From: Lachnospiraceae bacterium
GTDB lineage: Bacteria > Bacillota > Clostridia > Lachnospirales > Lachnospiraceae
Reading direction: 5' to 3'
DNA: 33,529 nt
Assembly: GCA_021205755.1 (NCBI GenBank)
Contig: JAJPWX010000052.1
Location: forward strand, 1-33,529
The notes under the pieces were generated by a model. That model searched no databases. It had not been told where the DNA came from and saw only the letters and a program-made list of their open reading frames with translations. Positions 13,830 to 31,163 of the stretch are shown one piece after another (the first letter of the stretch is position 1; each line of letters opens with the position of its first letter). The position numbers and the translations under genes are program-made.

Positions 13830-15473
13830 TTGGGAAAATACTTACTGGATAAATTAACAGAATATACAGAGTCGGACGCCTATCCATTGCATATGCCAGG
13901 ACATAAGCGGCAAATGCGTTCGTTCGGAGATGCGTTTGCGATTGATATTACAGAGATTGATGGTTTTGATAATCTGCATCACGCGGAGGGGATTCTTCTG
14001 GAAGCGCAGAAGCGGGCGGCGCGCCTGTACGGGGCGGATGAGACATATTACCTGGTAAATGGAAGTACCTGCGGAATTCTTGCGGCGGTTTCTGCTTCTG
14101 TTCGGCGCGGAGGCCGCATTCTGATGGCGCGAAACAGTCATAAGGCCGCCTATAACGCCGCGCTTTTGAACGGGCTTCGCGTGACCTGGCTTTACCCGGA
14201 GACGGATTTGCGGCGCGGCATCTGCGGAAGCATTCGGCCGGAGCAGGTGCGAGCCGCGCTGGAAGCGGGGATGTGCGGGCAGGAAACCGATTTCTCAGGA
14301 AAATTCTATTGCGACAATCAGAAACGAGCGGATTCCAACGCAGTCAGAGGAGGAACGAGCGGCAGAATTGCGGCGGTTCTCATTACATCCCCAACGTATG
14401 ACGGTGTTGTATCGGACATCCGCGCCATCGCGGAGGAGGTACATCGGGCGGGCGCAATTCTGATTGTGGATGAGGCGCACGGCGCGCATTTTGCGATGCA
14501 TTCGTATTTTCCGGAATCTGCACTCTCTTGCGGAGCGGACGTGGTAATTAACAGCCTGCATAAAACGATGCCTTCTCTGACGCAGACCGCGCTTCTCCAT
14601 GTAAAAGGAGCGCGCGTGGATCGGGAACGGCTGCGGAAATATCTCGGCATTTTTCAGAGCAGCAGCCCCAGTTATGTCCTAATGGCCGGGATGGATGAAT
14701 GTGTCCGCCTGATGGAGACACAAAAAGAAGAATTGTTTGATCGCTTTGTGCATCGGCTGCAGGCATTGCGCGAGCGTCTTGGGAAGATGAAGCACCTGCG
14801 CCTTGTGACAGGGGAAGAAGCGGAGCTGTATACATTTGCCTTTGACCGTTCAAAAGTATTGATTTCGACAGAGAAGTGCGGGAGCCTGACCGGACCGGGG
14901 CTTGCAAAAATTCTGCGCGAGCGGTATCATCTGGAAGTGGAGATGGCTGCGGAGCGGTATATTACGGCGATTCTGACGGTCGCGGATACGCAGGAAGGGT
15001 TTGACCGCCTGGAATGTGCGCTTCTGGAGACGGATGCGGGGCTTGAGCGTGAGATTGCTGATATTGCGACAAATAGAATGACTGCGGGAAAAAAACGGAC
15101 AGGCAGCACTGCGCCGGAAGAATCAGGTACAGGCGAAAAGCTTATATGCCAAAAATCTATAGATGTATCGGATGAGGGCGATGCATGGATCATGCTGCGG
15201 ACAGAGGAACGCTTCACGATGGCGGAAGCGGACGAGCTTCCCCATGAAACCATTCGGTTAAAGGACAGCCCAGGGCGGATTGCAGCGGAATTTGTTTATC
15301 TTTATCCGCCTGGGATACCGATTCTGGTGCCAGGAGAGCGTATCCCCGAAGAATTGCCGGGGCTGCTTCTGCGTTACCGGAAAGGCGGATTGAATGTGCA
15401 GGGACTGGCGGATTACAGCGGAAAGACGATTCAGTGCGTGGCGCAAGGATTACAGCAGGACGATGGAGATTGA
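13830..15473 (+). CDS. Orn/Lys/Arg decarboxylase family protein (YaaO/SpeA type)
   Basis: PLP enzyme of fold type I, about 547 residues. Seen: PLHMPGHKR near the N-terminus, NGSTCG (phosphate loop), SHKAAYNA, TSPTYDG, VDEAHGAH (PLP-contacting Asp), INSLHKTMPSLTQ (Schiff-base Lys245), and the C-terminal domain with YPPGIPILVPGE. The likely product is a diamine or agmatine, but the substrate cannot be read from sequence. Start: GGAGGAA (13817-13823) fits a TTG at 13830 with 6-base spacing. The in-frame ATG at 13815 has no binding site and itself overlaps the GGAGG. Two unusual inserts occur, before TSPTYDG (about 30 residues with GQETDFSGKF) and before the C-terminal domain (Lys/Thr/Gly-rich). 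The kinase-like gene starts 6 bases after the stop. Confidence 0.88.
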   Translation: MGKYLLDKLTEYTESDAYPLHMPGHKRQMRSFGDAFAIDITEIDGFDNLHHAEGILLEAQKRAARLYGADETYYLVNGSTCGILAAVSASVRRGGRILMARNSHKAAYNAALLNGLRVTWLYPETDLRRGICGSIRPEQVRAALEAGMCGQETDFSGKFYCDNQKRADSNAVRGGTSGRIAAVLITSPTYDGVVSDIRAIAEEVHRAGAILIVDEAHGAHFAMHSYFPESALSCGADVVINSLHKTMPSLTQTALLHVKGARVDRERLRKYLGIFQSSSPSYVLMAGMDECVRLMETQKEELFDRFVHRLQALRERLGKMKHLRLVTGEEAELYTFAFDRSKVLISTEKCGSLTGPGLAKILRERYHLEVEMAAERYITAILTVADTQEGFDRLECALLETDAGLEREIADIATNRMTAGKKRTGSTAPEESGTGEKLICQKSIDVSDEGDAWIMLRTEERFTMAEADELPHETIRLKDSPGRIAAEFVYLYPPGIPILVPGERIPEELPGLLLRYRKGGLNVQGLADYSGKTIQCVAQGLQQDDGD

Positions 15474-17663: not shown

Positions 17664-18803
17664 ATGAAAAATAAATTTCGCGTTTTATTACCTCTGCTGT
17701 TTCTGACATTCTTAGTCTGGAACTGGAGTTCCGGGTCTCTGACTGCGTTGGCGAGCACCGAGGCTGAGGCTGACTCTGCTGCGGCGGTATCGGAAGACAG
17801 TACGACCAAGACGAAGGCCGGCTGGGTTAAAATCGATGGGTATTATTACTGGCAGCGGGCGAATGGAACCATTGTCACGTCGAAAGGGTTCAAAAAGCTG
17901 GGCGGAAAGACGTATTATCTGGCGTCTGGCGGCCGCAGGAAGACGGGGCTTCTGACGATCAAAGGGAAAATCTATTATCTGAAGCCATCCCTTGTATATG
18001 GGCTGACAACGGTCAAAGGAAATACTTATTATTTTGATGAGACGACCGGAGCGGCTGTGACCAGTGACTGGGTGACGATCAAAAAGAAGACGTATTATTT
18101 TGACGCGAATGGCTGTATGGTAAAGGGACAGTGGATCGAATACGAGGGACATTATTACTATATCAAAAAGAACGGTGTTCTGCATTCGGCAGGGAAATGG
18201 ATGACACTTTCCACCGGGACTTATTATATCAGTAAGAAAGGGTACCGGGTGACTGGCCTGAAGACGATTAGCGGGAAAAAGTATTATTTCCTGTCAGACG
18301 GGACGCTGGTTACGGACAAGACAGCTTATGCGATCAATGGAACTTATTACACGATCAGCTCAAATGGCGTAGCGACGGTGGCGGATACCAGCAATGTGAA
18401 GGTACAGTGTTCGATTAAGACGCAGGAGTTTATCGCCAAGCATACAAGCTCAGGTCAGACGAATGCGGAGAAGTTCCGGAAGTGCTTTAATTACATTATT
18501 GCTTACACGCGATTTACCGGTTATGATCCGCTGACGAGTTCGGAAGCTGCTACAGATACCTGGCCGTATTCCCGGGCGCTGGAGATGCTGAACACGAATC
18601 TGACCGGCAATTGCTACGGTATGGCAAGTCTGATTGCTTCCTGCGCAAAGGAGCTGGGATATCAGCCGTATGTGGTTGCAATCACGGCGCAGCATGGATT
18701 TGTGATCATTGACGGAAAGTATTATGACAATATGGGGGCGCGCTTTGGCACGGATCAGCCTGCGATTTACCCATATACGGTCAGATGCCAGATCGAGTTC
18801 TGA
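17664..18803 (+). CDS. Secreted cell-wall-binding-repeat protein with transglutaminase-like domain
   Basis: A 379-residue exported protein. The signal peptide is MKNKFRVLLPLLFLTFLVWN to about residue 30. Residues 52-240 hold about nine glucan/choline-binding-type repeats of about 20 residues with the G-x-x-YY(Y/F) core (GYYYWQRANG, KTYYLASGG, NTYYFDE, KTYYFDANG, HYYYIKKNG, and so on). A C-terminal domain of about 130 residues ends with a plausible Cys-His-Asp triad: GNCYGMASL (Cys317), AQHGFVII (His344), KYYDNMG (Asp355). Such transglutaminase-like folds can be proteases, amidases or cross-linkers; the reaction is unknown. GGAGGT is 11 bases before the ATG. Two related genes follow. I infer wall attachment through the repeats. 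Confidence 0.83.
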   Translation: MKNKFRVLLPLLFLTFLVWNWSSGSLTALASTEAEADSAAAVSEDSTTKTKAGWVKIDGYYYWQRANGTIVTSKGFKKLGGKTYYLASGGRRKTGLLTIKGKIYYLKPSLVYGLTTVKGNTYYFDETTGAAVTSDWVTIKKKTYYFDANGCMVKGQWIEYEGHYYYIKKNGVLHSAGKWMTLSTGTYYISKKGYRVTGLKTISGKKYYFLSDGTLVTDKTAYAINGTYYTISSNGVATVADTSNVKVQCSIKTQEFIAKHTSSGQTNAEKFRKCFNYIIAYTRFTGYDPLTSSEAATDTWPYSRALEMLNTNLTGNCYGMASLIASCAKELGYQPYVVAITAQHGFVIIDGKYYDNMGARFGTDQPAIYPYTVRCQIEF

Positions 18804-18916: not shown

Positions 18917-19564
18917 ATGAAAAAAATGAAGAAGGTTTTAAAAAAGGCTTTGCTGTTGATTCTCTGTCTGGCGATGGCGCAGACACCGGCTGTCTCAAAT
19001 GTGATCGGGGGGACATCCATCACGGCACAGGCGGCGACGAAGAATGGTTTGGTGACGAAGAACGGGAAGTATTATTATTATAAGAACGGTGTGAAGCTGA
19101 AAAACACCTGGAAGACGGTCACCAAGACTTCTTCGAGCGGAAAGACGACTACGAATAAGTATTATTTCGGCTCTAACGGCGCTGCTGTGATGGCGACGAC
19201 AACGATGGACTGCACGTATAATATCAAGGTCAAGACTATCAATGGAAAGAAATATGGATTTGATACGAAAGCGCGTCTGGCGAGTGGAATTTACGCTGAC
19301 GAATTGACCGGAAAGCTTTATTATTTCAATGCAAAGGGCGTTTACAATGCTACGAAAACAAAGAAACTGCGCGCAGCGGCAAAGCAGGGCTCAGACCTGG
19401 CTGCGCTGGTGAAGCTTCTGGGTACGCCGAAGAGCCGTAAGGAATCGAACAGCTGTCTGATTCTGGGTTATACGGATATCACGCTTACCTATGCGCATTT
19501 TACCGTCTATGGTCTGCAGGCACCGGATGGCACGGAAACGGTATACGCGATCTATACCATCTGA
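18917..19564 (+). CDS. Secreted protein with two or three wall-binding-type repeats
   Basis: A 215-residue exported protein. A Lys-rich signal peptide (MKKMKKVLKKALLLILCLAM, cleaved near TAQA-A) is followed by TKNGLVTKNGKYYYYKNGVK, nearly the same block as in the next gene, and further YYF and YYFNAKG repeats. The last 65 residues (from KLRAAAKQGSDLAALVKLLGTP to the end) form a small domain with SCLILGYTDITLTYAHFTVY. This lacks the Cys-His-Asp triad of its neighbours and faintly recalls BamE/SmpA-type small domains, which is only an impression. The start at 18917 has AAGGAG about 12 bases upstream; longer reading to 18785 would include the repeat element and is rejected. The function is unknown. 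Confidence 0.78.
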   Translation: MKKMKKVLKKALLLILCLAMAQTPAVSNVIGGTSITAQAATKNGLVTKNGKYYYYKNGVKLKNTWKTVTKTSSSGKTTTNKYYFGSNGAAVMATTTMDCTYNIKVKTINGKKYGFDTKARLASGIYADELTGKLYYFNAKGVYNATKTKKLRAAAKQGSDLAALVKLLGTPKSRKESNSCLILGYTDITLTYAHFTVYGLQAPDGTETVYAIYTI

Positions 19565-19574
19565 CGTAATTGGC

Positions 19575-19637
19575 GAGGGATGCCCGTCCGGCGAGGATAT
19601 ATCCCTCACGGAGTGAGGGATGCCCGTCCGGCGAGGA
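19575..19637. repeat. 23-bp direct repeat with a central hairpin
   Basis: GAGGGATGCCCGTCCGGCGA plus GGA occurs at 19575-19597 and again at 19615-19637, identical. Between them TCCCTCAC-GGA-GTGAGGGA (19602-19620) is a perfect 8-bp hairpin overlapping the second copy. It lies between two wall-protein genes. Two units and no protein reading suggest an intergenic repeat family or attenuator. Confidence 0.7.
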
Positions 19638-19679
19638 CCAGTGGAGAACATCTGAGATAAAGGGAGGAGGCCTGAGAGC

Positions 19680-20426
19680 ATGAAAAGGATGAAAAAAACC
19701 TTATTTTTATTGTTTTTAGCTATGTTGGTGACATTTTGCGCAGCTCCGGCTGTGACTTACGCGGATTCGAGTACATCTTCATCTTCTTCGACGACGAAAA
19801 ATGGTCTGGTGGAGAAGAATGGTAAGCTGTATTATTATAAAAATGGAAAGCTGGTTAAGGACAAGCTTGGCATCAAGATCGATGGTAATTATTATAAAAT
19901 CAGCGCGAAGGGCGTCTGTAAAAAGGTGAGTGAGGCGGCCGGCCGGGCAGGGATTCAGCTGGAGAAAATCGGTCGGGAAAGCACAAAGAGCAAAACGCTG
20001 AAAAAGGCGTTTACCTGGTGTTCGACGCAGATCACCTATGCGCCGGTGACGGGGTCGCCGGCTTCGGGTCAGACAAAGCTGGCTTATTATTCCATCTATG
20101 GATTTAAAAAGAAGGTGGGCGACTGCAATGTAATGGCCGCAACGTTTTGCCAGATGGCAAAAGTGCTCGGTTATGACGCGAAGTTTGTATCGGGCTATAT
20201 TATTTCCAGTTATGATTCGGATGGCAATCCGGTTTTAGCGAAGCATGCCTGGGTTACGATTAAGATCAGCGGGACGACCTATGTCTACGATCCGAATTTT
20301 GCGTACGTACAGCATACGCTGAATAACAATACGGCGGCGCACAGCGGCTATAAAATGACCTATACCAAGACTGGCACGAAATTGCAGTATACATATTATT
20401 CATCTAAGAAGAAATTGCTGAAATAA
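19680..20426 (+). CDS. Secreted transglutaminase-like protein with short wall-binding repeats
   Basis: A 248-residue exported protein. Its signal peptide is cleaved near TYADS, followed by a Ser/Thr stretch, two repeats (KNGLVEKNGKLYYYKNGK and IKIDGNYYKISAKG), then a transglutaminase-like domain. The domain is complete: VGDCNVMAATF (Cys149), AKHAWVTI (His189), YVYDPNF (Asp204). This is the clearest triad of the set and follows the usual order. The N-terminal block is nearly shared with the preceding gene, implying duplication and domain exchange. The substrate is unknown; wall peptide, protein cross-link or protease activity are all possible. GGAGG lies about 10 bases before the ATG. Confidence 0.85.
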   Translation: MKRMKKTLFLLFLAMLVTFCAAPAVTYADSSTSSSSSTTKNGLVEKNGKLYYYKNGKLVKDKLGIKIDGNYYKISAKGVCKKVSEAAGRAGIQLEKIGRESTKSKTLKKAFTWCSTQITYAPVTGSPASGQTKLAYYSIYGFKKKVGDCNVMAATFCQMAKVLGYDAKFVSGYIISSYDSDGNPVLAKHAWVTIKISGTTYVYDPNFAYVQHTLNNNTAAHSGYKMTYTKTGTKLQYTYYSSKKKLLK

Positions 20427-20526
20427 CGGCTCTTGCGAGACGTCAGGCTTGCAGAACGATTGAAAATAAGATGGAAAGAAAATATGCCTGGATAAAAGGC
20501 AGGAAGAAGGAGAAAGGATTTAGGAT

Positions 20527-21489
20527 ATGAAGACAGGACATGCAAAACAGGCGGGAAGTATTTTACTGGCGGTTCTTCTGGGTGCGTCGGGTGTCATGGG
20601 GACAGGCTGCCTGGCCTTTGCGGAAGAGGCGACAGAGGCGGTAAACGAGCAGAGCGAACTGGAAACGGAACTGGACGCTGACGCAGCGGATGCGGAGATT
20701 GAAATCACGGAGTTGGAAATTACAATTGGTGAGGAGACGCTGATTGTTTCAAATGTGACGGGAATTGCAGTGGAGCCTGTTTCCGCGGGAGAAGTATCGG
20801 AAGACGCGGATGGCGCAGAAGATACCGATTCCGAGAGCGCGGAGAATGCGGATGCTGAAACCGCAGAGGGTGCAGATAGTGAAACCGCAGAAGGCGATAC
20901 GGCCGTTGCCCTTGCATTTACGACGGAGGACGGTACAGTACATACGTTTGAGATTGCGGATGCGGAGGAGCTGACGGAGCTGACGGATTTGACTCTGACG
21001 GAGAAGATCGGATTCTTTTTTCTTTATGGAACGGACGGAAACGGAGACGCAAAATATTATTATGAGACGGCGGATGAGATTACGCTGGAAGAAGTGGTGA
21101 CGATGTACACGACCGGTCAGGTGACGGTTCGTGAGAGCGCGGACGGCTCTTCGGAGGCTTTAGGTTATGCGGACCGAGGAAGTGAACTGGAGGTCCTTGG
21201 CGGTACTTCGACCTGGTTTCTGATCAGCCAGGGCGACCTGACCGGTTACGTGGCGGCACGCTATCTGACGGTAGATGCGGAGGAAGCGCAGGCGGCGGTT
21301 GAGGCGGAGGAGAACGCACAGGCGGCCGCAGCAGCAGCAGCGCAGGAGGCAGCAGCGGCAGCGGCGGCACAGGCAGCGGCAGCAGCGGCGGCGGCTGCGT
21401 CATCGGCCGCATCAGATAGCAGCTCAAGTTCTCAGACAGAGACCACACAGACCGATAACGCATGCCTGACCGGAGGAGTTTTAAACTAA
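20527..21489 (+). CDS. Secreted SH3-domain protein with poly-Ala tail
   Basis: A 320-residue exported protein. The signal peptide runs to about 32 (LAFA-EE). Residues 33-125 are acidic and repetitive (ETAEGADSETAEG). A short uncharacterised strand-rich part (125-190) precedes one bacterial SH3 domain (about 197-250: VTVRESADGSSEALGYADRG, TGYVAARYLTV), of the type that often binds peptidoglycan. Residues 255-295 are almost all Ala with a few Gln/Glu, followed by a Ser/Thr/Gln end. The stop is only 6 bases before the MBOAT start, so this gene is part of the acylation operon and the product may be its exported acceptor or scaffold (inference). Confidence 0.82.
   Translation: MKTGHAKQAGSILLAVLLGASGVMGTGCLAFAEEATEAVNEQSELETELDADAADAEIEITELEITIGEETLIVSNVTGIAVEPVSAGEVSEDADGAEDTDSESAENADAETAEGADSETAEGDTAVALAFTTEDGTVHTFEIADAEELTELTDLTLTEKIGFFFLYGTDGNGDAKYYYETADEITLEEVVTMYTTGQVTVRESADGSSEALGYADRGSELEVLGGTSTWFLISQGDLTGYVAARYLTVDAEEAQAAVEAEENAQAAAAAAAQEAAAAAAAQAAAAAAAAASSAASDSSSSSQTETTQTDNACLTGGVLN
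21322..21399. repeat. GCN-trinucleotide tract (poly-Ala)
   Basis: About 25 GCA/GCG/GCC codons broken by a few CAG/GAG codons within the SH3 protein gene. It is slippage-prone in whole codons. Confidence 0.8.
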
Positions 21490-21495
21490 AAGATT

Positions 21496-23010
21496 ATGTC
21501 ATTCGTATCGAATACCTTTCTACTATTTGCGGGGGCGAGTGTCATTCTTTACTACCTTGCTCCCGCGCGATTCCGCTGGGTCGTGCTGCTGGTGTTCAGC
21601 TATATTTATTATCTGACAGCGGGGGTGCGCCTGGTCGGTTTCCTTTTGTTTTCTACGATCGTTACCTTTGTGGCAGGAAGAGTGATCGGGTATCTGTATG
21701 AAAAAGGCCGCGAGCCGAAGCAGGTTCGGTGGATTCTGATCCTGGCTTTGGTTCTGAACTTTTTTATGCTGGGGCTTACAAAGTACACGGGTATGCTGAT
21801 TGACGCGCTGAACGCACTTTTCCATATGGAATTGCGCGGACTGGATCTGGTGCTGCCGCTGGGGATTTCTTTTTATACGTTCCAGTCTTCCGGCTACCTG
21901 CTGGATGTCTATCTGAGGCGGATCACCGCGGAAAAACGTCCGCTGCAGTATGCGCTTTTCGTTTCGTTCTTTCCGCAGATCATGCAGGGACCGATCGGGC
22001 GCTACAATCAGCTGGCCGATCAGCTTTTTGAGCCGCATGCCCTGAAGGGGGAGAATCTTATCCGGGGCGCCGAGCGGATGCTGTGGGGCTTTTTTAAGAA
22101 AATGGTCATCGCGGACTGGACAGCGGTTTTTGTCGACGCGATTTTTGCCGCTCCGGATCAGTATCAGGGGCTGGCGTTTTTCGGAGCGTTTCTGTATCTG
22201 ATTCAGCTGTACGCGGATTTCTCCGGCGCGATGGATATTGTGATTGGCCTGGCGCAGATGTACGGGATTACGCTGGAAGAGAACTTCCGCAGGCCGCTGT
22301 TTTCGACTTCGGTCGCGGACTTCTGGCGCCGCTGGCACATTACACTTGGCCGCTGGATGAAGGATTATCTGTTCTATCCAATGATGCTTTCCAGCTGGAT
22401 GACGAAGATTACCAAGTGGGCAAAAACGAAATTCGGGCGCAAGACGGGGCGTATGGTGCCGATTGCCCTGGCGGATGTACTGGTATTCCTGGTTGTCGGT
22501 ATCTGGCACGGGGCGGGAGGAACCTATATTTTCTTTGGGTTCTACAACGGTCTGATTATTGGTGCGAGTGAGCTGCTGGCCGACCGCTATCGAAAATGGA
22601 AGACCGCCTTACATATTTCCGGTACGGAAGCGTGGTATCACGGTTTTATGATCGTGCGCACACTGCTTTTGACCATCAGCCGGATGTATTTCAGCCGCGC
22701 GGATTCGATGGCTCAGGCGCTGCAGATGATCAAAAATACTTTCACCAGCTTTCAGCCGTCGCTGCTTCTGACCATACCGGCGGGGCGGGACGGTCTGTCC
22801 TTTACACCGTACGCGCTTTTGATTATTGTGTGCGGGTGTATTGTAATGCTGGCGGTGGATATTTTACAGGAGCGGGGAGTAAAAATACGGGAATCACTGT
22901 CCAGGCTTCCGCTTCCGGCTACAGCAGCAGTGTATTTTGTACTACTTTTGTCCATTGGCTTATTTGGCTCAACGGACGCAACGAAAGGCTTTATTTATGC
23001 ACAATTTTGA
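21496..23010 (+). CDS. MBOAT-family membrane O-acyltransferase (DltB/AlgI-like)
   Basis: A 504-residue polytopic membrane protein with about ten hydrophobic helices. Family landmarks: LVLPLGISFYTFQSSGYLLD (118-137), FFPQIMQGPIGRY (158-170), YADFSGAMDIVIGL (239-252), FWRRWHITLGRWMKDYLFYP (276-295) and VGIWHGAGGTYIFFG (334-348), with His338 as the expected catalytic residue and His281 as the second conserved one. DltB and AlgI move D-Ala or acetyl groups across or onto exported polymers. With the carrier protein and ligase downstream, a DltB-like role is more likely than an acetyl-CoA type. The strong GGAGGAG upstream is 16 bases away, so initiation may depend on coupling to the SH3 gene. It overlaps the next gene by 14 bases. 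Confidence 0.92.
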   Translation: MSFVSNTFLLFAGASVILYYLAPARFRWVVLLVFSYIYYLTAGVRLVGFLLFSTIVTFVAGRVIGYLYEKGREPKQVRWILILALVLNFFMLGLTKYTGMLIDALNALFHMELRGLDLVLPLGISFYTFQSSGYLLDVYLRRITAEKRPLQYALFVSFFPQIMQGPIGRYNQLADQLFEPHALKGENLIRGAERMLWGFFKKMVIADWTAVFVDAIFAAPDQYQGLAFFGAFLYLIQLYADFSGAMDIVIGLAQMYGITLEENFRRPLFSTSVADFWRRWHITLGRWMKDYLFYPMMLSSWMTKITKWAKTKFGRKTGRMVPIALADVLVFLVVGIWHGAGGTYIFFGFYNGLIIGASELLADRYRKWKTALHISGTEAWYHGFMIVRTLLLTISRMYFSRADSMAQALQMIKNTFTSFQPSLLLTIPAGRDGLSFTPYALLIIVCGCIVMLAVDILQERGVKIRESLSRLPLPATAAVYFVLLLSIGLFGSTDATKGFIYAQF

Positions 23011-23998
23011 TGGAAAACGGCGGCTGACCTGGTGGAAGGTACTGCTCGTCGCGGCGGTTTTTGCATTGCTTTTATATGGATTGGATCTCGCGCTGTACCC
23101 GTGTACCTTTATGCGCAATGACATTCACGCAATCACGACCACGCATTATGATGACATTATCGTGGGAACTTCCCACGGAAAGATGGGAATTGACCCGGAT
23201 ACGATGGAGGAGATCACTGGCAGGAGCGCCCACAACGCCTGCGTGGGCGGGGAATATGGGATAGATGTTTACTATCTTACTAAGCTGGCCATTGAAACGC
23301 AGGATCCTGAGCGCATCATCTATGAGGTAGGCCCCGGTTATTTTGCGACGGAAAAAGAAGAGGGGAACAATTACCTGCTCTTTTACCATGAATTTCCGCT
23401 GTCACTGACCAAGGTGGAATACTTTTTTGACTGCATTGCGCAGACAAATTTCCGAACCGTACTGTTCCCGTGGTACGAGTATTCCCTTTCCTATGAGCTT
23501 CCGCAGGTATCGGAGACATTGACGCGCAAGCTGACGGGTGATTACAGTGTGGACAGCCTGAAAAGCGATTCACAGGAATACCACGAAAGCGGTTTTATTG
23601 AGCGCTACGCTGTGGATACCTCCACACTTCCGCTGACCGTGCAGAATCTTTTTTCACTGGATGCGCTCGTAGAGGAGAATATGGAATACCTGGAAAAGAC
23701 CATTGATCTCTGTGAGGAAAACGGGGTTGAGTTTGTGGCGGTCATTACGCCGATTCCGGCGGCGACGCTGGGTACCTGGTGGGACAATTTTATGGATGCG
23801 TATGATTTATTTGCGGAACTCTTTGAGGAAAAGGGAGTTACCTGCCTGAATTTTAACACGGATTATTATTTTGAGGCCTCGCATGAGATCGAGGATTTTA
23901 CGGACTACGATGGTCATATGAACGGCGACGCGGCCAGAGAATTCTCGAAGGTATTGGCGAAGTATCTGAATGCGCTGGAGGAAGACAGTGAGATATAA
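22997..23998 (+). CDS. Membrane-anchored SGNH/DltD-like acyltransfer protein
   Basis: A 333-residue protein with one N-terminal membrane helix (about 12-33) and the rest outside. An SGNH-hydrolase-type pattern is visible: the nucleophile block IIVGTSHGKMGIDP (Ser59), an AxNxCVGG-like block II (NACVGGEYGID), VAVITPIPA, and the closing DYDGHMNGDAA (303-313) with the Asp/His pair. The layout matches DltD and AlgJ/PatB partners of MBOAT proteins, which handle the acyl group on the outer side. The ATG at 22997 lies inside the end of the MBOAT gene, implying translational coupling. The acceptor polymer is unknown. Confidence 0.83.
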   Translation: MHNFDGKRRLTWWKVLLVAAVFALLLYGLDLALYPCTFMRNDIHAITTTHYDDIIVGTSHGKMGIDPDTMEEITGRSAHNACVGGEYGIDVYYLTKLAIETQDPERIIYEVGPGYFATEKEEGNNYLLFYHEFPLSLTKVEYFFDCIAQTNFRTVLFPWYEYSLSYELPQVSETLTRKLTGDYSVDSLKSDSQEYHESGFIERYAVDTSTLPLTVQNLFSLDALVEENMEYLEKTIDLCEENGVEFVAVITPIPAATLGTWWDNFMDAYDLFAELFEEKGVTCLNFNTDYYFEASHEIEDFTDYDGHMNGDAAREFSKVLAKYLNALEEDSEI

Positions 23999-24079
23999 GC
24001 AGCAGTTCAGAATCGTTGCGGCACTTGTATTATAAAAGGGCTCTTTGAGCGGAAAATAGAGGGAGAAAGGCAGAAGAAA

Positions 24080-24313
24080 ATGGAACAACAGGTTTTAGAA
24101 CTTTTAAAAGAGGAATATCCGGAGATTGAATTTGAGACGACGAAGCGGCTCTGGGATGACGGGATTCTGGATTCCGTTACGTTAATTGGCATTGTCGGCG
24201 CATTGAATATGGAGTTTGGGATTTCGATTCCTTACGTGGAGATCATTGAGGCGAATTTTAACTCTGTGGCCGGTATGGCACGCCTGGTCGAGAAGCTGCA
24301 GGCCGCAAAGTAA
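24080..24313 (+). CDS. Acyl carrier protein (DltC-like)
   Basis: A 77-residue carrier protein with a four-helix pattern and the phosphopantetheine attachment site LWDDGILDSVTLI (Ser32). The sequence after the site (GIVGALNMEFGISIPYVEI) is closer to DltC and stand-alone carriers than to fatty-acid AcpP, whose site reads DSLD. It should be loaded by the ligase gene that follows and present the acyl group to the MBOAT/SGNH pair. GGGAGAAAGG lies about 10 bases upstream. Confidence 0.9.
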   Translation: MEQQVLELLKEEYPEIEFETTKRLWDDGILDSVTLIGIVGALNMEFGISIPYVEIIEANFNSVAGMARLVEKLQAAK

Positions 24314-24400
24314 ATGCCATAGATTGCTGCCGGAAGCGGACGGTTTGGCGTAATCATACGCATGGCCTGAGGCGATTGTCATAAGAGAGAGGAGAAAAAA

Positions 24401-25870
24401 GTGTGGAAATCCATTGAGGAGTATGTCTTTGCGCATGCGGAAAGGACACCGGAGCGCAAGGCAATTATTACAAAGACAAGGGAAGTGACGTACGCGCAGC
24501 TGGTTCACGAAGTGAAATGCTGCGTGAGCTATCTCAGAGACAAAGGCGTTGGCCGGGGCAGCGTAGTGGTGGTAAAGACCAGCCAGACGATTGAGCACAT
24601 TGTCCTTTATCTTGGCATTCATCTTGCGGGAGGCGTGATGGCCTCTCTGGAGCGGACGATTTCAAATGAGGGTCTCGCGAACGCGGCGAGGGCGGTGAAT
24701 GCGGATGCAATCATCAGTGACGATCCCGCAGTGGCGGAATTATACCCGTCGATTTTTATGGACAGCCGAATCGCGATTCCGGATATCGCTGATGAAGAAT
24801 TGCCGGAAATTTCTTTCCCGAAGGCGGAAGAGCCGGGGGAGATTTTATTTACGACAGGAACGACGGGAAAATCAAAGGGCGTGGAGATGTCGCACGGCGC
24901 GCTTTTTGCGCTGGCGGAAAATCTGATCGATGGGGTTTCCTGCCCAGACGAGTTTGTCCTTTTGATTCCCGGCCCTCTGAACCACGCGAACGCGATCCGC
25001 AATCTGACTGCGGCTCTGGTAAAAGGCGGTGCAGGTTATCTTTTAAATGGCATGATGAACCTGCGGGATTTTTACGAAGCGATGGATTATCCCTGTGAGA
25101 AGGTCAGCTGCTGCCTGCCGCCGGCTTATATCCGGATTCTTTTCATGCTGTCCGGGGATAAGATCGGGGAGTATGCGGATAAGGTTGATTATATTATGTC
25201 TTCCACCGCGCCGATTCCCGAGGCGGACAAGGAAAAGCTGTGCGCGCTTCTGCCGCACTCCAGGCTGTACAACAGTTATGGCTCCTCGGAGTCTGGCATG
25301 ATCTGCATGTACAATTACAATCAATATCCCGGTATGAAAAACTGCATCGGCCGGGAGACGAAGAATTCGGAGGTCCGGATTGTGGATGAGGAGCGGCATG
25401 AGATTGCATCCTCCACGGAGAATACCGGGCTGATTGCCTGCAAAAGCACTACAAATATGATGGGATATGTAAACGAGCCGGAGCTGACCGCGCAGTGTCT
25501 TTGCGATGGTGTTTTTTACACGAATGACATTGGCTATAAGGATGAGAATGGGTTTATTTATATTCTTGGACGAAAGGGCGATGTGATTAATGTCGGCGGG
25601 ATGAAAGTGGCGCCCTCTGAGGTAGAGGATGCGGCGCTTGCAAACGAGGCGGTGCAGGACTGCATCTGTATAGGCGTGGACGACGCCATCACCGGGAAAG
25701 CGCTGAAGCTGCTGGTTGTGATGCGGGACGGACAGAAGCTCGATAAAAAAGCACTTCGGCAGTTCCTTGCCTCCAGGCTGGAAGCCTATAAGGTACCGGC
25801 CGGCTACGAGCAGGTAGAGCGGATCCGGCGCACGTATAATGGAAAACTTGACCGAAAAGCGTATTTATAG
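24401..25870 (+). CDS. AMP-forming acyl/aminoacyl ligase (DltA-like position)
   Basis: ANL-superfamily adenylating enzyme of 489 residues starting at GTG (24401), with AGAGAGGAG about 7 bases upstream. Core motifs: P-loop TTGTTGKSKG (151-160), YNSYGSSESG (290-299), TNDIGYKDENGFIYILGRKGD (Asp376, Arg391 region), VGGMKVAPSEVE (398-409) and the C-terminal catalytic Lys in NGKLDRKAY (Lys482). It activates a carboxylate as acyl-AMP and, in this setting, loads the carrier protein. It departs from DltA in the substrate pocket region as far as I can judge, and the overall look is of a fatty or small acyl-CoA-ligase type, so the group need not be D-alanine. It is the last gene of the accessory segment. 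Confidence 0.88.
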   Translation: MWKSIEEYVFAHAERTPERKAIITKTREVTYAQLVHEVKCCVSYLRDKGVGRGSVVVVKTSQTIEHIVLYLGIHLAGGVMASLERTISNEGLANAARAVNADAIISDDPAVAELYPSIFMDSRIAIPDIADEELPEISFPKAEEPGEILFTTGTTGKSKGVEMSHGALFALAENLIDGVSCPDEFVLLIPGPLNHANAIRNLTAALVKGGAGYLLNGMMNLRDFYEAMDYPCEKVSCCLPPAYIRILFMLSGDKIGEYADKVDYIMSSTAPIPEADKEKLCALLPHSRLYNSYGSSESGMICMYNYNQYPGMKNCIGRETKNSEVRIVDEERHEIASSTENTGLIACKSTTNMMGYVNEPELTAQCLCDGVFYTNDIGYKDENGFIYILGRKGDVINVGGMKVAPSEVEDAALANEAVQDCICIGVDDAITGKALKLLVVMRDGQKLDKKALRQFLASRLEAYKVPAGYEQVERIRRTYNGKLDRKAYL

Positions 25871-25939: not shown

Positions 25940-26003
25940 GTAACAGGTAAGAAATAAGTAACGATTATAACGATACCGTCCGCGATGCGCACAGGAGGAC
26001 ATA

Positions 26004-27068
26004 ATGGCAGGATTTCAGGGCATTCTTGGACATAAAAAAGAGATCGCGCACCTGGAGAGAGCGATTCGCTCCGGGAAAGTGAGTCATGCGTATATATTGA
26101 ATGGCGAAAAGGGAACCGGGAAGAGCGTGCTCGCGAAGGCGTTCGCTCAGACATTGCAGTGTGAGAATGTGAAGATGCCGGAGCTTATTGCCGGAGCAGC
26201 GGAGGAGAAGCTTCTTCCGGAGGAGCAGGCAGGTCTTGATGTGGAGGCTTGCGGGAAATGCCATTCCTGCAGGCAGGCCGAGAGCGGCAATCACCCGGAT
26301 ATTATCTACGTGCGCCATGAGAAGCCATCAAGCATTGGCGTCGATGATGTGCGGGAGCAGCTGATTGGCGACGCGCAGATTCGTCCATATAATGGAAAAT
26401 ATAAAATATACATCATCGCTGACGCGGAAAAGATGACGCCGCAGGCGCAGAACGCGATCCTTAAGACGATTGAGGAGCCGCCGGATTATGTGATTATCCT
26501 GCTTTTGACGGCAAATGACCGGGCGCTGCTGGATACGATCCGCTCGCGGTGTGTAACGCTGAATCTGAAGCCGGTGCCGGATGAAGTCGTGAAAGAATAT
26601 CTGATGGAGAAGATTCAGATACCGGACTATCAGGCGGATATCTGCGCGGCGTTCGCCCAGGGGAATATCGGGAAGGCCGAGCGGCTGGCGTCCTCGGATG
26701 ATTTCAACGCGATCAAGGCATCTGCAATGCGTCTGGTTCGCAATGCGGGTGACATGGAGATCAGCGCTATCATTGATTACGTGAAAGAGGTGCAGGAGTA
26801 TAAAATTTCCATCCAGGATTACCTGGATATTCTCGCCCTCTGGTATCGGGATATGGTATACTATAAGGCGACGAGAGACATCGACGGCCTGATTTTTAAA
26901 GACGAGCTGCGCACGATCCGGGAGACCGTCCGCAGATGCTCTTATGAGGGGGCAGAGGAGGTCATGAAAGCCATTGAGACGGCAAAGACGCGCCTGAATG
27001 CGAATGTCAATTTTGACCTGACAATGGAGCTTCTGTTCCTGGTGATTAAGGAGAACATACATGGTTAA
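26004..27068 (+). CDS. holB: DNA polymerase III delta' subunit
   Basis: Clamp-loader subunit of 354 residues, AAA+ fold. Walker A GEKGTGKS (34-41) is intact, unlike the degenerate one in E. coli delta'. A four-Cys zinc module is present (Cys53, 83, 86, 89: CGKCHSC). YIIADAEKMTPQAQNAILKTIEEPP is the family's strongest block, and TIRSRC carries the SRC arginine motif. The partner subunits are elsewhere. AGGAGG stands 7 bases before the ATG. It overlaps ricT by 8 bases, the usual order in Firmicutes. Confidence 0.92.
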   Translation: MAGFQGILGHKKEIAHLERAIRSGKVSHAYILNGEKGTGKSVLAKAFAQTLQCENVKMPELIAGAAEEKLLPEEQAGLDVEACGKCHSCRQAESGNHPDIIYVRHEKPSSIGVDDVREQLIGDAQIRPYNGKYKIYIIADAEKMTPQAQNAILKTIEEPPDYVIILLLTANDRALLDTIRSRCVTLNLKPVPDEVVKEYLMEKIQIPDYQADICAAFAQGNIGKAERLASSDDFNAIKASAMRLVRNAGDMEISAIIDYVKEVQEYKISIQDYLDILALWYRDMVYYKATRDIDGLIFKDELRTIRETVRRCSYEGAEEVMKAIETAKTRLNANVNFDLTMELLFLVIKENIHG

Positions 27069-28068
27069 AATTATTGGAGTCAGATTCCGAAACGCGGGCA
27101 AGGTTTACTACTTTGATCCCAAATCTTATGAAATTCATTCGGGAGATCATGTGATTGTGGAGACATCCCGCGGGGTGGAATACGGCACGGCGATTGGCGG
27201 TGTCCGGGAGGTGGAGGATGACAAGGTCATACCGCCGCTGAAAGAGGTTGTCCGGATGGCAACGGAGGAGGACGACGCTCATGCGCTTCGCAATCGTGAG
27301 AAGGAACGGGAGGCTATGCGGATCTGCCGGGAGAAAATCCTGAAGCATGGCCTGGAAATGAAGCTGATTGACGCAGAATACACCTTTGATGATAATAAAG
27401 TCCTGTTTTATTTTACGGCAGATGGGAGAATTGATTTTCGCGAGCTGGTCAAAGATCTGGCAGCAGTATTCCGCATGCGGATTGAGCTGAGACAGGTCGG
27501 TGTGCGCGACGAGACGAAGCTTCTGGGCGGCATCGGCATCTGCGGCCGGGAGCTTTGCTGCCATTCCTATCTCTCCGATTTTGCGCCAGTGTCTATCCGG
27601 ATGGCCAAGGAACAAAACCTTTCCCTGAATCCAACCAAGATTTCCGGTGTCTGCGGCCGCTTGATGTGCTGCCTGAAGAATGAGGAAGAGACTTACGAAT
27701 ACCTGAACAGCCGCCTTCCGGCGCAGGGTGATACCGTGACGACGGCAGACGGAAGGACCGGTGTGGTGCAGAACGTCAATGTTCTGCGTCAGAGAGTCAA
27801 GGTTCTTTTTGAAGAAGGCGATGACAAGGAGCTCGAAGAGTTTGAGGTCGCTGATCTGAATTTCCGTCCGAGACGCAGGAAGGAAAAAGGCGGCAAAGGC
27901 AAGGACAGAGATAAGGATAGAGAGAAAGACAAAGAGAGAGAGAAAGACAAAGAAAGCCGTCGCTCCCGCTCCGGCGGCGCCCAGACGCAGGAAGAGAAAG
28001 AACTGCAGGAACTGGAAGCGCTGGAACGAAAAGAAGGAAAACCAAAATCGAAATCCCATAAGTCCTGA
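27061..28068 (+). CDS. ricT: PSP1-domain protein RicT (YaaT)
   Basis: A 335-residue PSP1-family protein. Residues 1-235 are the conserved part. Two Cys clusters, GICGRELCC (Cys161, 166, 167) and GVCGRLMCC (Cys198, 203, 204), match the cysteines that in B. subtilis RicT help hold iron-sulfur clusters of the RicA-RicF-RicT (YaaT/YlbF/YmcA) complex. That complex guides RNase Y in mRNA maturation and affects competence, biofilm and sporulation. The tail after 270 is a strongly charged KDRDKDREKDKE run and then Glu/Lys-rich, absent from short homologues. Start ATG overlaps the end of holB, indicating coupling. Confidence 0.92.
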   Translation: MVKIIGVRFRNAGKVYYFDPKSYEIHSGDHVIVETSRGVEYGTAIGGVREVEDDKVIPPLKEVVRMATEEDDAHALRNREKEREAMRICREKILKHGLEMKLIDAEYTFDDNKVLFYFTADGRIDFRELVKDLAAVFRMRIELRQVGVRDETKLLGGIGICGRELCCHSYLSDFAPVSIRMAKEQNLSLNPTKISGVCGRLMCCLKNEEETYEYLNSRLPAQGDTVTTADGRTGVVQNVNVLRQRVKVLFEEGDDKELEEFEVADLNFRPRRRKEKGGKGKDRDKDREKDKEREKDKESRRSRSGGAQTQEEKELQELEALERKEGKPKSKSHKS

Positions 28069-28171
28069 AGAGGTAATGAAAAATCTTTTTGGGAACTTTG
28101 AATTAGGCCGACCGCAAGCTCATCGGTTTTCGGCGATGGGGGAGCCCACGGTTAGAAAGGAATTACTTCTT

Positions 28172-28909
28172 ATGGAAGTAGAATTAAAAGAGGGCGAACA
28201 TCTGGATGACCTGTACCGCAACGGTCTGCGGATTATCCAGAGTGAGCACCTGTTCCGGTTCGGGATGGATGCGGTGCTGCTTTCCGGGTTTGCCCGGGTA
28301 AAAGATGGCGGCCGGGCCCTTGATCTGGGGACAGGCACCGGTATCATACCGATTCTGCTCTCGGCGAAGACGCCGGGGCGGCATTTTACCGGACTGGAGA
28401 TTTCGGAGGCGAGCGCGGACATGGCCGCCCGCAGCGTTTTGCTCAATGACTTGTCTGGCCAGATCGAGATTGTAAAAGGAGATATCAGGGAAGCCGACGT
28501 GCTGTTTGCACCGGCTTCTTTTGACACCGTCACCTCCAATCCGCCGTATCTCCAGGGCAGTCATGGACTTTTAAACCCGGATATGGAGAAAGCTGCAGCG
28601 CGCCATGAGATTCTATGTACACTCGAGGACGTGGTGCGGGCGGCCGCGAAGCTGCTGGTGCCGGGCGGACATTTTTACATGGTACACCGTCCGTTCCGCC
28701 TGGCCGAGATCATCTGTCTGCTTTCACAGTATCGGCTGGAGCCCAAACGGATGCGTTTCGTTTACCCGTATGTGGACAAAGAACCGAACATGGTACTCAT
28801 CGAGGCCGTGCGCGGCGGGCGGGCGCGGATGACTGTGGAGAAGCCGCTGATTGTATACGACCAGCCGGGAGTGTATAACCGGGAGATCACGGAGATTTAT
28901 GGGTATTGA
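28172..28909 (+). CDS. tRNA1(Val) (adenine(37)-N6)-methyltransferase, YabB/TrmN6 type
   Basis: SAM-dependent methyltransferase of 245 residues: SAM loop LDLGTGTGIIPILL (51-60 region), acidic residue in GLEIS, and the N6-adenine catalytic motif SNPPYLQG (NPPY, 123-126). It is the YabB position in the Bacillus holB-yaaT-yabA-yabB-rsmI order. I choose the ATG at 28172 because AAAGGA is 11 bases upstream and homology begins at LDDL; the ATG at 28076 would add 32 unconserved residues and its GAGG is only 2 bases away. Bacillus YabA, normally between, is missing here. Confidence 0.87.
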   Translation: MEVELKEGEHLDDLYRNGLRIIQSEHLFRFGMDAVLLSGFARVKDGGRALDLGTGTGIIPILLSAKTPGRHFTGLEISEASADMAARSVLLNDLSGQIEIVKGDIREADVLFAPASFDTVTSNPPYLQGSHGLLNPDMEKAAARHEILCTLEDVVRAAAKLLVPGGHFYMVHRPFRLAEIICLLSQYRLEPKRMRFVYPYVDKEPNMVLIEAVRGGRARMTVEKPLIVYDQPGVYNREITEIYGY

Positions 28910-28967
28910 ACCGGTAGGTACGGCTCGGCAGCGCCAGGCCCCCACTTTAAATAGGAAAGGATATTGT

Positions 28968-29837
28968 ATGGTCAGGGAAGAAAAAGAATCGCCATCGTCT
29001 GGCGTCGGCCGCCTCTACCTTTGCGCCACTCCGATCGGCAATCTGGAGGACATTACGCTGCGCGTGATCCGCACGCTGAAAGAGGTCGATCTGATTGCGG
29101 CGGAGGATACGCGCGGAAGTATCAAGCTGCTGAATCATTTTGATATTCACACGCCGATGACGAGCTATCACGAGTACAACCGTATCGAAAAAGCGCATAC
29201 TCTGATCGCAAAAATGCTGGCGGGCAGCGATGTCGCCCTGATCACGGACGCCGGGACGCCGGGCATTTCCGACCCGGGCGAGGATCTTGTGCGGCTGTCC
29301 ATGGAGGCGGGGATTGAGGTGACCTCTCTGCCGGGCGCCTGTGCCTGTGTGACTGCGCTGACGCTTTCCGGACTTCCGACGAGGCGTTTTTGCTTCGAGG
29401 CGTTTCTGCCCGCGGACAAAAAAGAGCGGCGGCAGATTCTGGAGGAGTTAAAGAACGAGACGCGCACGATCATTCTCTATGAGGCTCCGCACCGGCTTGT
29501 GCGGACACTCACGGAGCTGTATGAGACGCTCGGCGACCGCCGCGCAACGGTCTGCCGCGAGCTGACGAAAAAACATGAGACCATCTTTGCTACGACTCTC
29601 GAAAAAGCGCTTGCCTGGTATCAGGAAAATGAGCCGCGCGGCGAGTGCGTGATTGTGCTGGAAGGGCGCAGCCGGAAAGAGATGGAGCGCGAAGAGCAGA
29701 TGCAGTGGGAGTCGCTGACGATTCCGGAGCATGTCGCGCTGTATGAAGCACAGGGGATGGAGCGCAAAGAAGCGATGAAGGCGGCCGCAAAGGATCGCGG
29801 GATTTCGAAGCGAGAGGTGTATGCGGCGCTGGTGTAA
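28968..29837 (+). CDS. rsmI: 16S rRNA (cytidine(1402)-2'-O)-methyltransferase
   Basis: Tetrapyrrole-methylase-fold enzyme of 289 residues which, with RsmH, modifies C1402 in the 16S decoding site. Seen: LYLCATPIGNLEDITLRVI, AAEDTRGSIKLLNHF, ALITDAGTPGISDPG, SLPGACACVTAL and the GLPTRRFCFEAFLP block. The start at 28968 has AAAGGA about 9 bases upstream; a longer in-frame reading starting inside trmN6 is rejected. The fucosidase gene begins 15 bases later, so they likely share a transcript. Confidence 0.93.
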   Translation: MVREEKESPSSGVGRLYLCATPIGNLEDITLRVIRTLKEVDLIAAEDTRGSIKLLNHFDIHTPMTSYHEYNRIEKAHTLIAKMLAGSDVALITDAGTPGISDPGEDLVRLSMEAGIEVTSLPGACACVTALTLSGLPTRRFCFEAFLPADKKERRQILEELKNETRTIILYEAPHRLVRTLTELYETLGDRRATVCRELTKKHETIFATTLEKALAWYQENEPRGECVIVLEGRSRKEMEREEQMQWESLTIPEHVALYEAQGMERKEAMKAAAKDRGISKREVYAALV

Positions 29838-29852
29838 AAGGAGGGAAACAAA

Positions 29853-31163
29853 ATGTCAGAATTTATTTTTGATCGGGAAGCTTACGACAAGCGGATGGAA
29901 TGGTACCTGGACGCGCGTTTTGGCATGTTCATTCACTGGGGATTATACGCAATTCCGGCGCGCGGTGAGTGGGTGCGCAGTGTGGAGCAGATGCCGAAAG
30001 AGGATTACATGAAGTATTTCCGGGAGTTTGACCCGGTGGACTATGACCCGCGCAAATGGGCGCGCGCGGCAAAGCGGGCGGGTATGAAGTACATGGTGAT
30101 GACCGCGAAGCACCATGATGGATTTTGCCTGTTTGACAGCCAGTACACGGATTTTAAGTCTACAAACACGAAAAGCGGCCGGGACCTGGTAAGGGAATAC
30201 GTAGAAGCCGTCCGTGCGGAAGGCTTGAAGGTGGGTTTGTATTTCTCTCTTCTGGACTGGTATCATGAGGATTTCCCGCATTATGGGGATGCGAACCATC
30301 CGATGCGGAACAATCCGGAGTATAGCAATGAGAACCGCGATTTTAACCGCTATCTTGATTATATGCACAACCAGGTGCGCGAGCTTTGTACCAATTATGG
30401 AAAGCTGGATATTCTCTGGTTTGACTTTTCTTATGATGAATTGCGCGGTGAGGCCTGGAAGGCGACCGAGTTGATGCAGATGGTGCGCTCCCTGCAGCCG
30501 GACGTGATCATCGATAACCGGCTCGAGGTGAACGGCGAGGGATTTGGCTCTCTGGCAGAGGGACATCCGACGCCTTATCACGGCGATTTTGTCAGCCCGG
30601 AGCAGATCATTCCGCCCAAAGGCCTGCAGGATGTGAATGGAAATGACCTGGCTTGGGAAGCCTGCTTTACGATGAACAACAGCTGGGGCTACCACGCGAC
30701 GGATCACTTTTATAAACCGGCATCTATGCTGATCCGGAAGCTGGTGGAGTGCGTCTCGAAAGGCGGCAATATGCTGCTGAATGTAGGACCGGACGCGCGC
30801 GGGAACTTCCCGTCGGAGGCGACCGAGCGGCTGGAAGCGATCGGTGAATGGATGGATAAAAACAGCCGGAGCATTTACGGCTGCGGCAAATCTGAGCTGG
30901 AAAAGCCGGACTATGGCCGCATCACCGCGGGAGACCATCGGCTGTACTTCCATGTGTTTGAGAACACGGTGGGTGCGGTTCCCCTGATCGGCGTAAAGCG
31001 CGAGGACGTCGAGGCCATCCGCTATCTGGCGACCGGCGCGGAGCTTCCGATCAGAAGCGACTGGGTCTACGCAGATTACCCGGATATTGTGTTTGCGTCG
31101 CTGGGCGAGAACCCGGTACTGCCGGATCCGGTGGATACGGTGATCGAGGTCGTGCTGAAATAA
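29853..31163 (+). CDS. GH29 alpha-L-fucosidase
   Basis: A 436-residue retaining alpha-L-fucosidase. Seen: RFGMFIHWG (22-30), GEWV, YMVMTAKHHDGFCLFDS (80-96), LDILWFDF (nucleophile Asp191), and KGGNMLLNVGPDARG near the end of the barrel domain, followed by a small beta domain. No signal peptide, so it acts in the cytosol on imported fucosylated sugars, as from mucin or milk glycans. AAGGAGGG lies about 7 bases before the ATG. It follows the rRNA methyltransferase with no terminator, an unusual mix of housekeeping and sugar catabolism. Confidence 0.92.
   Translation: MSEFIFDREAYDKRMEWYLDARFGMFIHWGLYAIPARGEWVRSVEQMPKEDYMKYFREFDPVDYDPRKWARAAKRAGMKYMVMTAKHHDGFCLFDSQYTDFKSTNTKSGRDLVREYVEAVRAEGLKVGLYFSLLDWYHEDFPHYGDANHPMRNNPEYSNENRDFNRYLDYMHNQVRELCTNYGKLDILWFDFSYDELRGEAWKATELMQMVRSLQPDVIIDNRLEVNGEGFGSLAEGHPTPYHGDFVSPEQIIPPKGLQDVNGNDLAWEACFTMNNSWGYHATDHFYKPASMLIRKLVECVSKGGNMLLNVGPDARGNFPSEATERLEAIGEWMDKNSRSIYGCGKSELEKPDYGRITAGDHRLYFHVFENTVGAVPLIGVKREDVEAIRYLATGAELPIRSDWVYADYPDIVFASLGENPVLPDPVDTVIEVVLK

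Follow-up and report, generated by a model that had tools for sequence, protein, structure and literature searches.

MBOAT–SGNH systems have been divided into two kinds, those in which a carrier protein is combined with the protein DltX (Dlt) and those in which CoA is combined with a fused motif, as set out in PMC12148441. The motif is the acyl-shuttle hexapeptide FXYXXF, which in Dlt lies on the separate protein DltX and whose acyl-tyrosine chemistry was demonstrated for PatA; the systems with the motif fused to the MBOAT protein have acyl-CoA donors and are described without a carrier protein (PMC12148441).

Gene set and fused acyl-shuttle motif

The window analysed here is a stretch of 33,529 nucleotides from a Lachnospiraceae bacterium, in which an earlier note had read five consecutive genes on the + strand as a Dlt-like extracellular acylation operon headed by a secreted SH3 protein. 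All five genes are present, with the 6-base gap before the MBOAT gene and the 14-base MBOAT/SGNH overlap that it had described:

20527-21489, + strand: secreted tail protein (SH3 protein) gene, head of the five-gene set
21463-21486, + strand: conserved tail C313-L-T-G-G-V-L-N, C-terminus of the secreted protein
21496-23010, + strand: MBOAT acyltransferase gene (PF03062, 63.3 bits, cut-off 27)
22990-23007, + strand: fused acyl-shuttle motif F-I-Y501-A-Q-F, MBOAT C-terminus, the protein ending KGFIYAQF
22997-23998, + strand: SGNH protein gene, for a membrane-anchored SGNH transferase with a predicted fold nearest DltD
24080-24313, + strand: acyl carrier protein gene (PF00550, 22.4 bits, cut-off 20.8)
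24401-25870, + strand: AMP-forming ligase gene with a GTG start (PF00501, 153 bits)

Pfam families could be assigned to the secreted SH3 protein, the MBOAT, the carrier and the ligase; for the SGNH protein, Pfam and NCBIfam gave no family at E 0.01. An SGNH gene adjoins the MBOAT gene in 72 of 81 MBOAT rows (80 relatives, the best 80 of 493), and the secreted protein gene is also kept in close relatives; judged by this conservation, the grouping of the genes exceeds chance. The codons of the acyl-shuttle motif (22990-23010 region) overlap the SGNH start codon, and the same 14-base overlap is seen in relatives such as L005, L006, L012 and L028 (L numbers denote loci). A promoter and terminator scan gave 30 promoter-like sites (9.7 expected) and 11 terminator-like sites (7.1 expected), and no operon boundary could be placed from them. 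The upstream limit of the set probably lies at ~17664, taking in choline-repeat and transglutaminase-like proteins:

17664-18803, + strand: CBP1, secreted protein with choline repeats and a C-terminal part resembling transglutaminases (PF19127, 84.6 bits)
18917-19564, + strand: CBP2, secreted choline-repeat protein (PF19127, 28 bits, cut-off 27)
19680-20426, + strand: CBP3, secreted transglutaminase-like protein (PF01841, 42.4 bits, cut-off 23)

CBP1 reaches 18.7 bits to PF01841, below the cut-off of 23; it stands in the same place in several relatives and is likely a member of the set. Of 31 loci with an SGNH gene of the LYPC type, i.e. one with Cys36, 21 have a CBP2 homologue near that gene and 24 a CBP3 homologue, with Cys180 of CBP2 (counted from 18917) kept in 21/21 and the presumed catalytic Cys149 of CBP3 in 24/24 homologues. 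Some of the loci without them are cut contigs (L008, L013, L019, L040 and L181), and in L021 and L022 one long gene replaces the pair. Eight genus loci that duplicate already included contigs were removed from these counts and from the ligase-neighbour counts below.

The set shares with Dlt the carrier, the AMP-forming ligase, the MBOAT, an SGNH protein of DltD-nearest fold and the carrier-to-MBOAT-to-SGNH logic, so that the Dlt-like part of the earlier reading holds, outside the curated DltABCD models. None of these four models is reached: the MBOAT, whose sole NCBIfam match is the DltB equivalog TIGR04091, scores 149.3 bits (cut-off 375), the carrier 28.3 bits to the DltC equivalog PRK05087 (cut-off 68) and the ligase 115.5 bits to the DltA equivalog TIGR01734 (cut-off 559.85), and PF04914 (DltD) matches neither the window SGNH protein nor anything else in the genome at E 0.01, in a search whose controls, B. 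subtilis and L. lactis, both matched. The window set further differs from Dlt in a ligase that is not of DltA type, in its gene order (B-D-C-A), in the extra secreted tail protein and in carrying the motif fused to the MBOAT with no DltX in the window; no DltX-like frame was found there, and a six-frame reading of the window gives F.Y..[FY]-stop at a single place, the MBOAT end itself.

The MBOAT has its presumed catalytic His338 within WHG, and ends in an FXYXXF motif, read as FIYAQF, that is fused to its C-terminus as in the PatA/PatB and AlgI/AlgJ pairs. Those pairs are described as using acyl-CoA without a carrier protein (PMC12148441), whereas carrier and ligase genes follow the pair in the window; on the genes alone, the set is thus not of PatA/AlgI type. 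The one other MBOAT match in the genome is AlgI/AlgJ-like by eye and ends in FLYFRF. Counting an MBOAT row as ligase-linked when a ligase lies at most 7.5 kb away, an F.Y..[FY] end is present in 42 of 45 DltA-linked rows and in 16 of 17 rows linked to the group of the window ligase (termed LIGw here), and fused motif and carrier-type ligase, by motif, occur together in 58 of the 62. The four exceptions are L034, L081, L040, where a run of N accounts for the miss, and L003, which has a different end and an apparent frameshift. Beside the published two-way scheme, a carrier-type ligase with a fused motif forms a third architecture. Among the matches listed, a literature search returned no description of the gene set, and work on the DltX mechanism may already mention a carrier with a fused motif.

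The SGNH protein and the secreted tail protein

The structure model of the SGNH protein (pLDDT 89.7, pTM 0.87) was compared with the PDB by Foldseek, and the first eight places go to DltD chains (E 3.5e-6 to 1.2e-4) at low TM-scores of 0.40–0.47 on the query, followed by small GDSL esterases (e.g. TesA), with PatB at rank 41. Active-site candidates are Ser59 and His307, with Asp303 or Asp305. In the 24-row SGNH alignment Ser59 (GTSHG), Asp303 and His307 are invariant, and Asp305 is nearly so (Asp or Glu in the rows printed); as the DxxH spacing given for PatB is absent from this alignment, either Asp303 or Asp305 may complete the triad. Cys36 is placed by the predicted structure in a loop directly after the predicted membrane helix, on the outer side.

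The secreted protein is built of a signal peptide, an acidic part, an SH3_3 domain (residues 199-247), a poly-Ala/Ser linker and the C-terminal CLTGGVLN. Only M1, C313, L314 and G317 are invariant in a 16-row alignment, the Cys being the only invariant side-chain nucleophile in the tail, and the SH3 domain is missing from several of the aligned proteins; scanned against Pfam at E 0.1, the SH3-less proteins of L010, L012, L014, L018 and L040 match nothing. By this alignment, the SH3 domain is dispensable and the strictly conserved part is the C-terminal CLxxG tail. The tail gene is found in 23 of the 24 MBOAT rows with an LYPC-type SGNH neighbour (95 rows in all), the contig of L019 ending first. 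The link that the earlier note drew between the head gene and the rest of the set is therefore upheld; to its question whether the SH3 gene is always kept, the answer is that the tail protein is, with several of these proteins lacking the SH3 domain and the tail alone common to them. Of the other 71 MBOAT rows, 54 of which have an SGNH neighbour, L014 is the one with a tail, and there the tail is part of the tail-type pair that stands alongside. With genus loci added, 29 of 31 LYPC loci carry the tail (it was looked for in those loci only), and the remaining two, L019 and L181, are cut by contig ends. The window itself falls in the tail clade, which we define by an LYPC-type SGNH protein together with a secreted protein ending in a CLxxG tail. 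On this distribution the tail protein is probably a partner specific to SGNH proteins of this subtype, although its link with Cys36 amounts to one event followed by retention and not to independent tests, because both arose once on the tree.

The C-terminal CLxxG pattern gave 26 matches among 5956 frames, of which 22 are secreted tail proteins and 4 arise by chance; in L012 the tail takes the variant form CLDGALFN. At the DNA level, a tail pattern that misses variants such as L013, L014 and L040 was found at 29 places in 28 of 397 family genomes, a raw count that is meaningless because a reversed-pattern control also matches many genomes; only two of the 29 places (the window and G002) end a long open frame with a secreted-type start. 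The position of the tail gene varies, in that it adjoins the MBOAT gene in close relatives, and in L016, L020-L023 and L025 follows the genes for the carrier and the choline-repeat proteins. Of 29 tail proteins, those of L013 and L190 carry five tandem tails, a state that requires two changes on the SGNH tree. In L014 (1186-10650), a single DltA-PLP-DltC cassette is followed by two MBOAT/SGNH pairs, one ordinary and one tail-type, the SGNH protein of the ordinary pair being ~33% identical to that of the window; two pairs on one DltA cassette suggest different acceptors.

Donor cassette and its exchange within the genus

Compared with L005, from the same genus, the window DNA matches in pieces over 18921-23959 (73–78%) and again over 25977-30362 (85–90%), with no match over the carrier and ligase genes among pieces longer than 150 bases. 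Shown at the same length, the match of L004 with L009 runs up to 10556 and resumes at 14164 (L004) and 12559 (L009). On these alignments, the carrier and ligase, i.e. the donor cassette, have been replaced in place within the genus. In the MBOAT tree (91 of 95 rows; L003, L040, L078 and one partial L125 row were left out) the window groups with L011 and L004 in a LIGw clade (support 100) nested in DltA-linked tail rows, and the tail label requires one change and the donor label three. The SGNH tree likewise has LIGw as one clade of five (support 99), with the window type inside DltA-linked tail rows. This SGNH protein is present in 16 of 47 genus genomes at E 1e-40, with a LIGw ligase in 5, a DltA-like ligase in 10 and no ligase seen in 1; the tail gene accompanies it in 15, and in the sixteenth (L181) the contig starts inside the SGNH gene.

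The earlier note had doubted that the ligase is a plain DltA, and the missed TIGR01734 cut-off is joined by Ala196 at a column where DltA-like relatives carry Asp. This Asp is present in 0/24 LIGw ligases (Ser 12, Ala 9, Val 3) versus 41/43 DltA-like relatives, L012 and L018 being the exceptions. Four residues further on, Arg (Arg200 in the window) is found in 24/24 LIGw ligases and Lys in 39/43 DltA-like rows. The region, which we take to be the A4 motif, reads mostly FDVSVKD in DltA-like relatives and PLNHANAIR or similar in LIGw; the Asp of DltA at this column presumably binds the amino group of D-Ala, and the Arg200 column is assumed to be a pocket position in NRPS numbering. Given that the amine-binding Asp is absent, the acid used by the ligase is probably not an alpha-amino acid; the Lys of the DltA-like relatives makes their own use of D-Ala uncertain. 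LIGw and DltA-like groups split with support 100 in a ligase tree that carries a long-branch warning. The ligase model from a 5-row alignment has a pLDDT of 49.9, too low for the pocket to be read from it, and a fragment search gave no match to acyl-CoA ligase templates; whole-ligase PDB searches rank NRPS adenylation domains first, which bears on the column mapping and not on the substrate.

LIGw homologues give 30 matches in 27 of the 397 family genomes at E 1e-60, and an MBOAT is present in 12 of the 20 neighbourhoods examined, a sample that leaves aside the window and nine matches with open frames of 681-718 aa. A DASS transporter, by a profile built from 3 of the 6 positive loci, adjoins LIGw in 6/17 MBOAT-bearing rows versus 0/47 DltA rows (Fisher 0.00017), and a PLP decarboxylase-like gene lies beside the ligase in 22/47 DltA rows with MBOAT versus 0/17 LIGw rows; L191 is counted twice among the 47, and such p-values are too small because the loci are related to each other. 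The DASS neighbour is a hint that the acid may be anionic. The idea of a dicarboxylate or another anion as donor, drawn from this neighbour and Arg200, is nonetheless a lead only, since the L004 DASS protein has no match in the window's own genome at E 1e-10, the loci are related, and Arg200 also occurs in LIGw ligases without MBOAT neighbours.

Two groups of related operons share part of the window set. The DltA-type sister operons (L005, L016, L028 and others) have a related MBOAT and, within the tail clade, the SGNH protein, the tail protein and in many loci the choline-repeat genes of the window, and differ in their DltA-like donor cassette and in the PLP decarboxylase-like gene noted above. 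The 12 LIGw-MBOAT operons (L115-L121, L124-L127 and L130) share the LIGw ligase, the fused-motif MBOAT and the carrier, whereas their MBOATs fall elsewhere in the tree and no tail protein was found; a DASS transporter lies beside the ligase in 5/12 and an SsuA/NMT1-type binding protein in 2/12.

Several further loci may be recorded here. L113 and L114 combine LIGw, carrier and SDR genes with no MBOAT in the stretch taken, L113 also having an FrhB-type protein, and the ligase group may thus have other uses. The window ligase scores 176 bits, below cut-off and fourth in the list, to TIGR03098 (exosortase A-associated ligase), and at L028:6427-7632 and similar loci a PLP decarboxylase-like gene between the DltA-like ligase and the carrier has TIGR03099 (exosortase A-associated decarboxylase) as its best NCBIfam model (163.6 bits, below cut-off); ligase, decarboxylase and carrier may form a shared trio. 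The tail-clade operons of L012 (10497) and L018 (4829), where the DltA-like ligase also lacks the Asp, are possible further donor changes, and in L012 ligase and carrier are separated by an SSS symporter. Finally, L195:622-6501, on contig C112 of the window's own genome, encodes another ligase with an adenylation domain, which scores 233 bits to TIGR01734 (below cut-off) and adjoins a run of genes Sir2-like by eye only, with no MBOAT match on that contig.

Proposed acyl relay and alternative readings

We propose that the set forms a carrier-fed MBOAT–SGNH acyl relay with the tail protein as its dedicated partner, a reading to which we give a probability of about 0.6. Going by the protein families, the ligase would activate a carboxylic acid and load it onto the phosphopantetheine at Ser32 of the carrier (presumed site, in LDSV); the MBOAT would carry the acyl group, through His338, from the carrier across the membrane to its own Tyr501, whose motif would take over the job of DltX; and Ser59 of the SGNH protein would accept it from the MBOAT and hand it to an envelope acceptor. 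The tail protein would partner the SGNH/MBOAT pair via its C-terminal Cys tail, either as substrate or as adaptor.

An adaptor role is a possibility we take seriously without favouring it, in which a disulfide between the tail Cys and Cys36 docks the protein, and the acceptor is wall glycan bound via SH3 or choline-type repeats. The co-occurrence of tail and Cys36 and the position of Cys36 just past the membrane helix are consistent with docking, whereas five tandem tails in two lineages would be superfluous for it, the SH3 domain is absent from several tail proteins, and strict anaerobes would not usually form disulfides outside the cell. More tentatively, the tail protein may itself be the acyl acceptor, its C-terminal Cys being S-acylated (or charged as a thioester) by the relay, with the load depending on how many tail copies there are (1 or 5) and the acyl type exchangeable with the cassette. 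The repeated tails favour such a substrate role, and the pairing with Cys36 favours docking.

It is unlikely that the tail is instead a handle by which transglutaminase-like proteins attach the protein covalently to the wall, independently of acylation: the frequency of CBP2 and CBP3 homologues near LYPC-type SGNH genes and the constancy of Cys149 would fit, yet L014 and L018 keep tail and Cys36 with no CBP2 or CBP3 homologue at the threshold used (although further choline-repeat genes, of the CBP1 type, are present in both). That a divergent Dlt system simply D-alanylates teichoic acid in the ordinary way appears improbable as well. Such a system would account for DltB as the MBOAT's only NCBIfam match, albeit below cut-off, for the DltD-nearest SGNH fold, and for the three sister operons tested, whose ligases are nearest to DltA or amino-acid adenylation models; it is opposed by the low TIGR01734 score and missing Asp of the window ligase, by a genome without PF04914 and a window without a DltX-like frame, and by the side-by-side pairs of L014 with their suggestion of different acceptors. 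That the tail is conserved solely as a ribosome-binding sequence for the MBOAT gene, as GGAGGAG within the GGV codons (21472-21478) might suggest, is scarcely credible, since 17 bases separate this stretch from the MBOAT start, a long distance for a Shine-Dalgarno sequence, tandem tail copies are internal, and the idea is refuted for the distant loci (L016, L020-L023 and L025), where the tail is kept in a gene ending 5.9-6.8 kb after the MBOAT start.

Taken as a whole, the earlier reading is sustained for the Dlt-like set, the ligase and the head-gene link, with the correction that the SH3 domain is not the conserved part. It did not anticipate that the acyl-shuttle motif is fused or that the donor cassette was exchanged in place, nor Cys36 of the SGNH protein or the upstream choline-repeat and transglutaminase genes. 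By its gene content, the set of this gut bacterium works like Dlt and is not a member of it, but a third arrangement, one whose donor is exchangeable and which includes a secreted partner. The cassette exchange within one genus provides a natural experiment, in which the same acyltransferase and partners are combined with a probably different acid. Should the tail be the acceptor, bacteria would be using Dlt-type machinery to acylate a dedicated protein at their surface.
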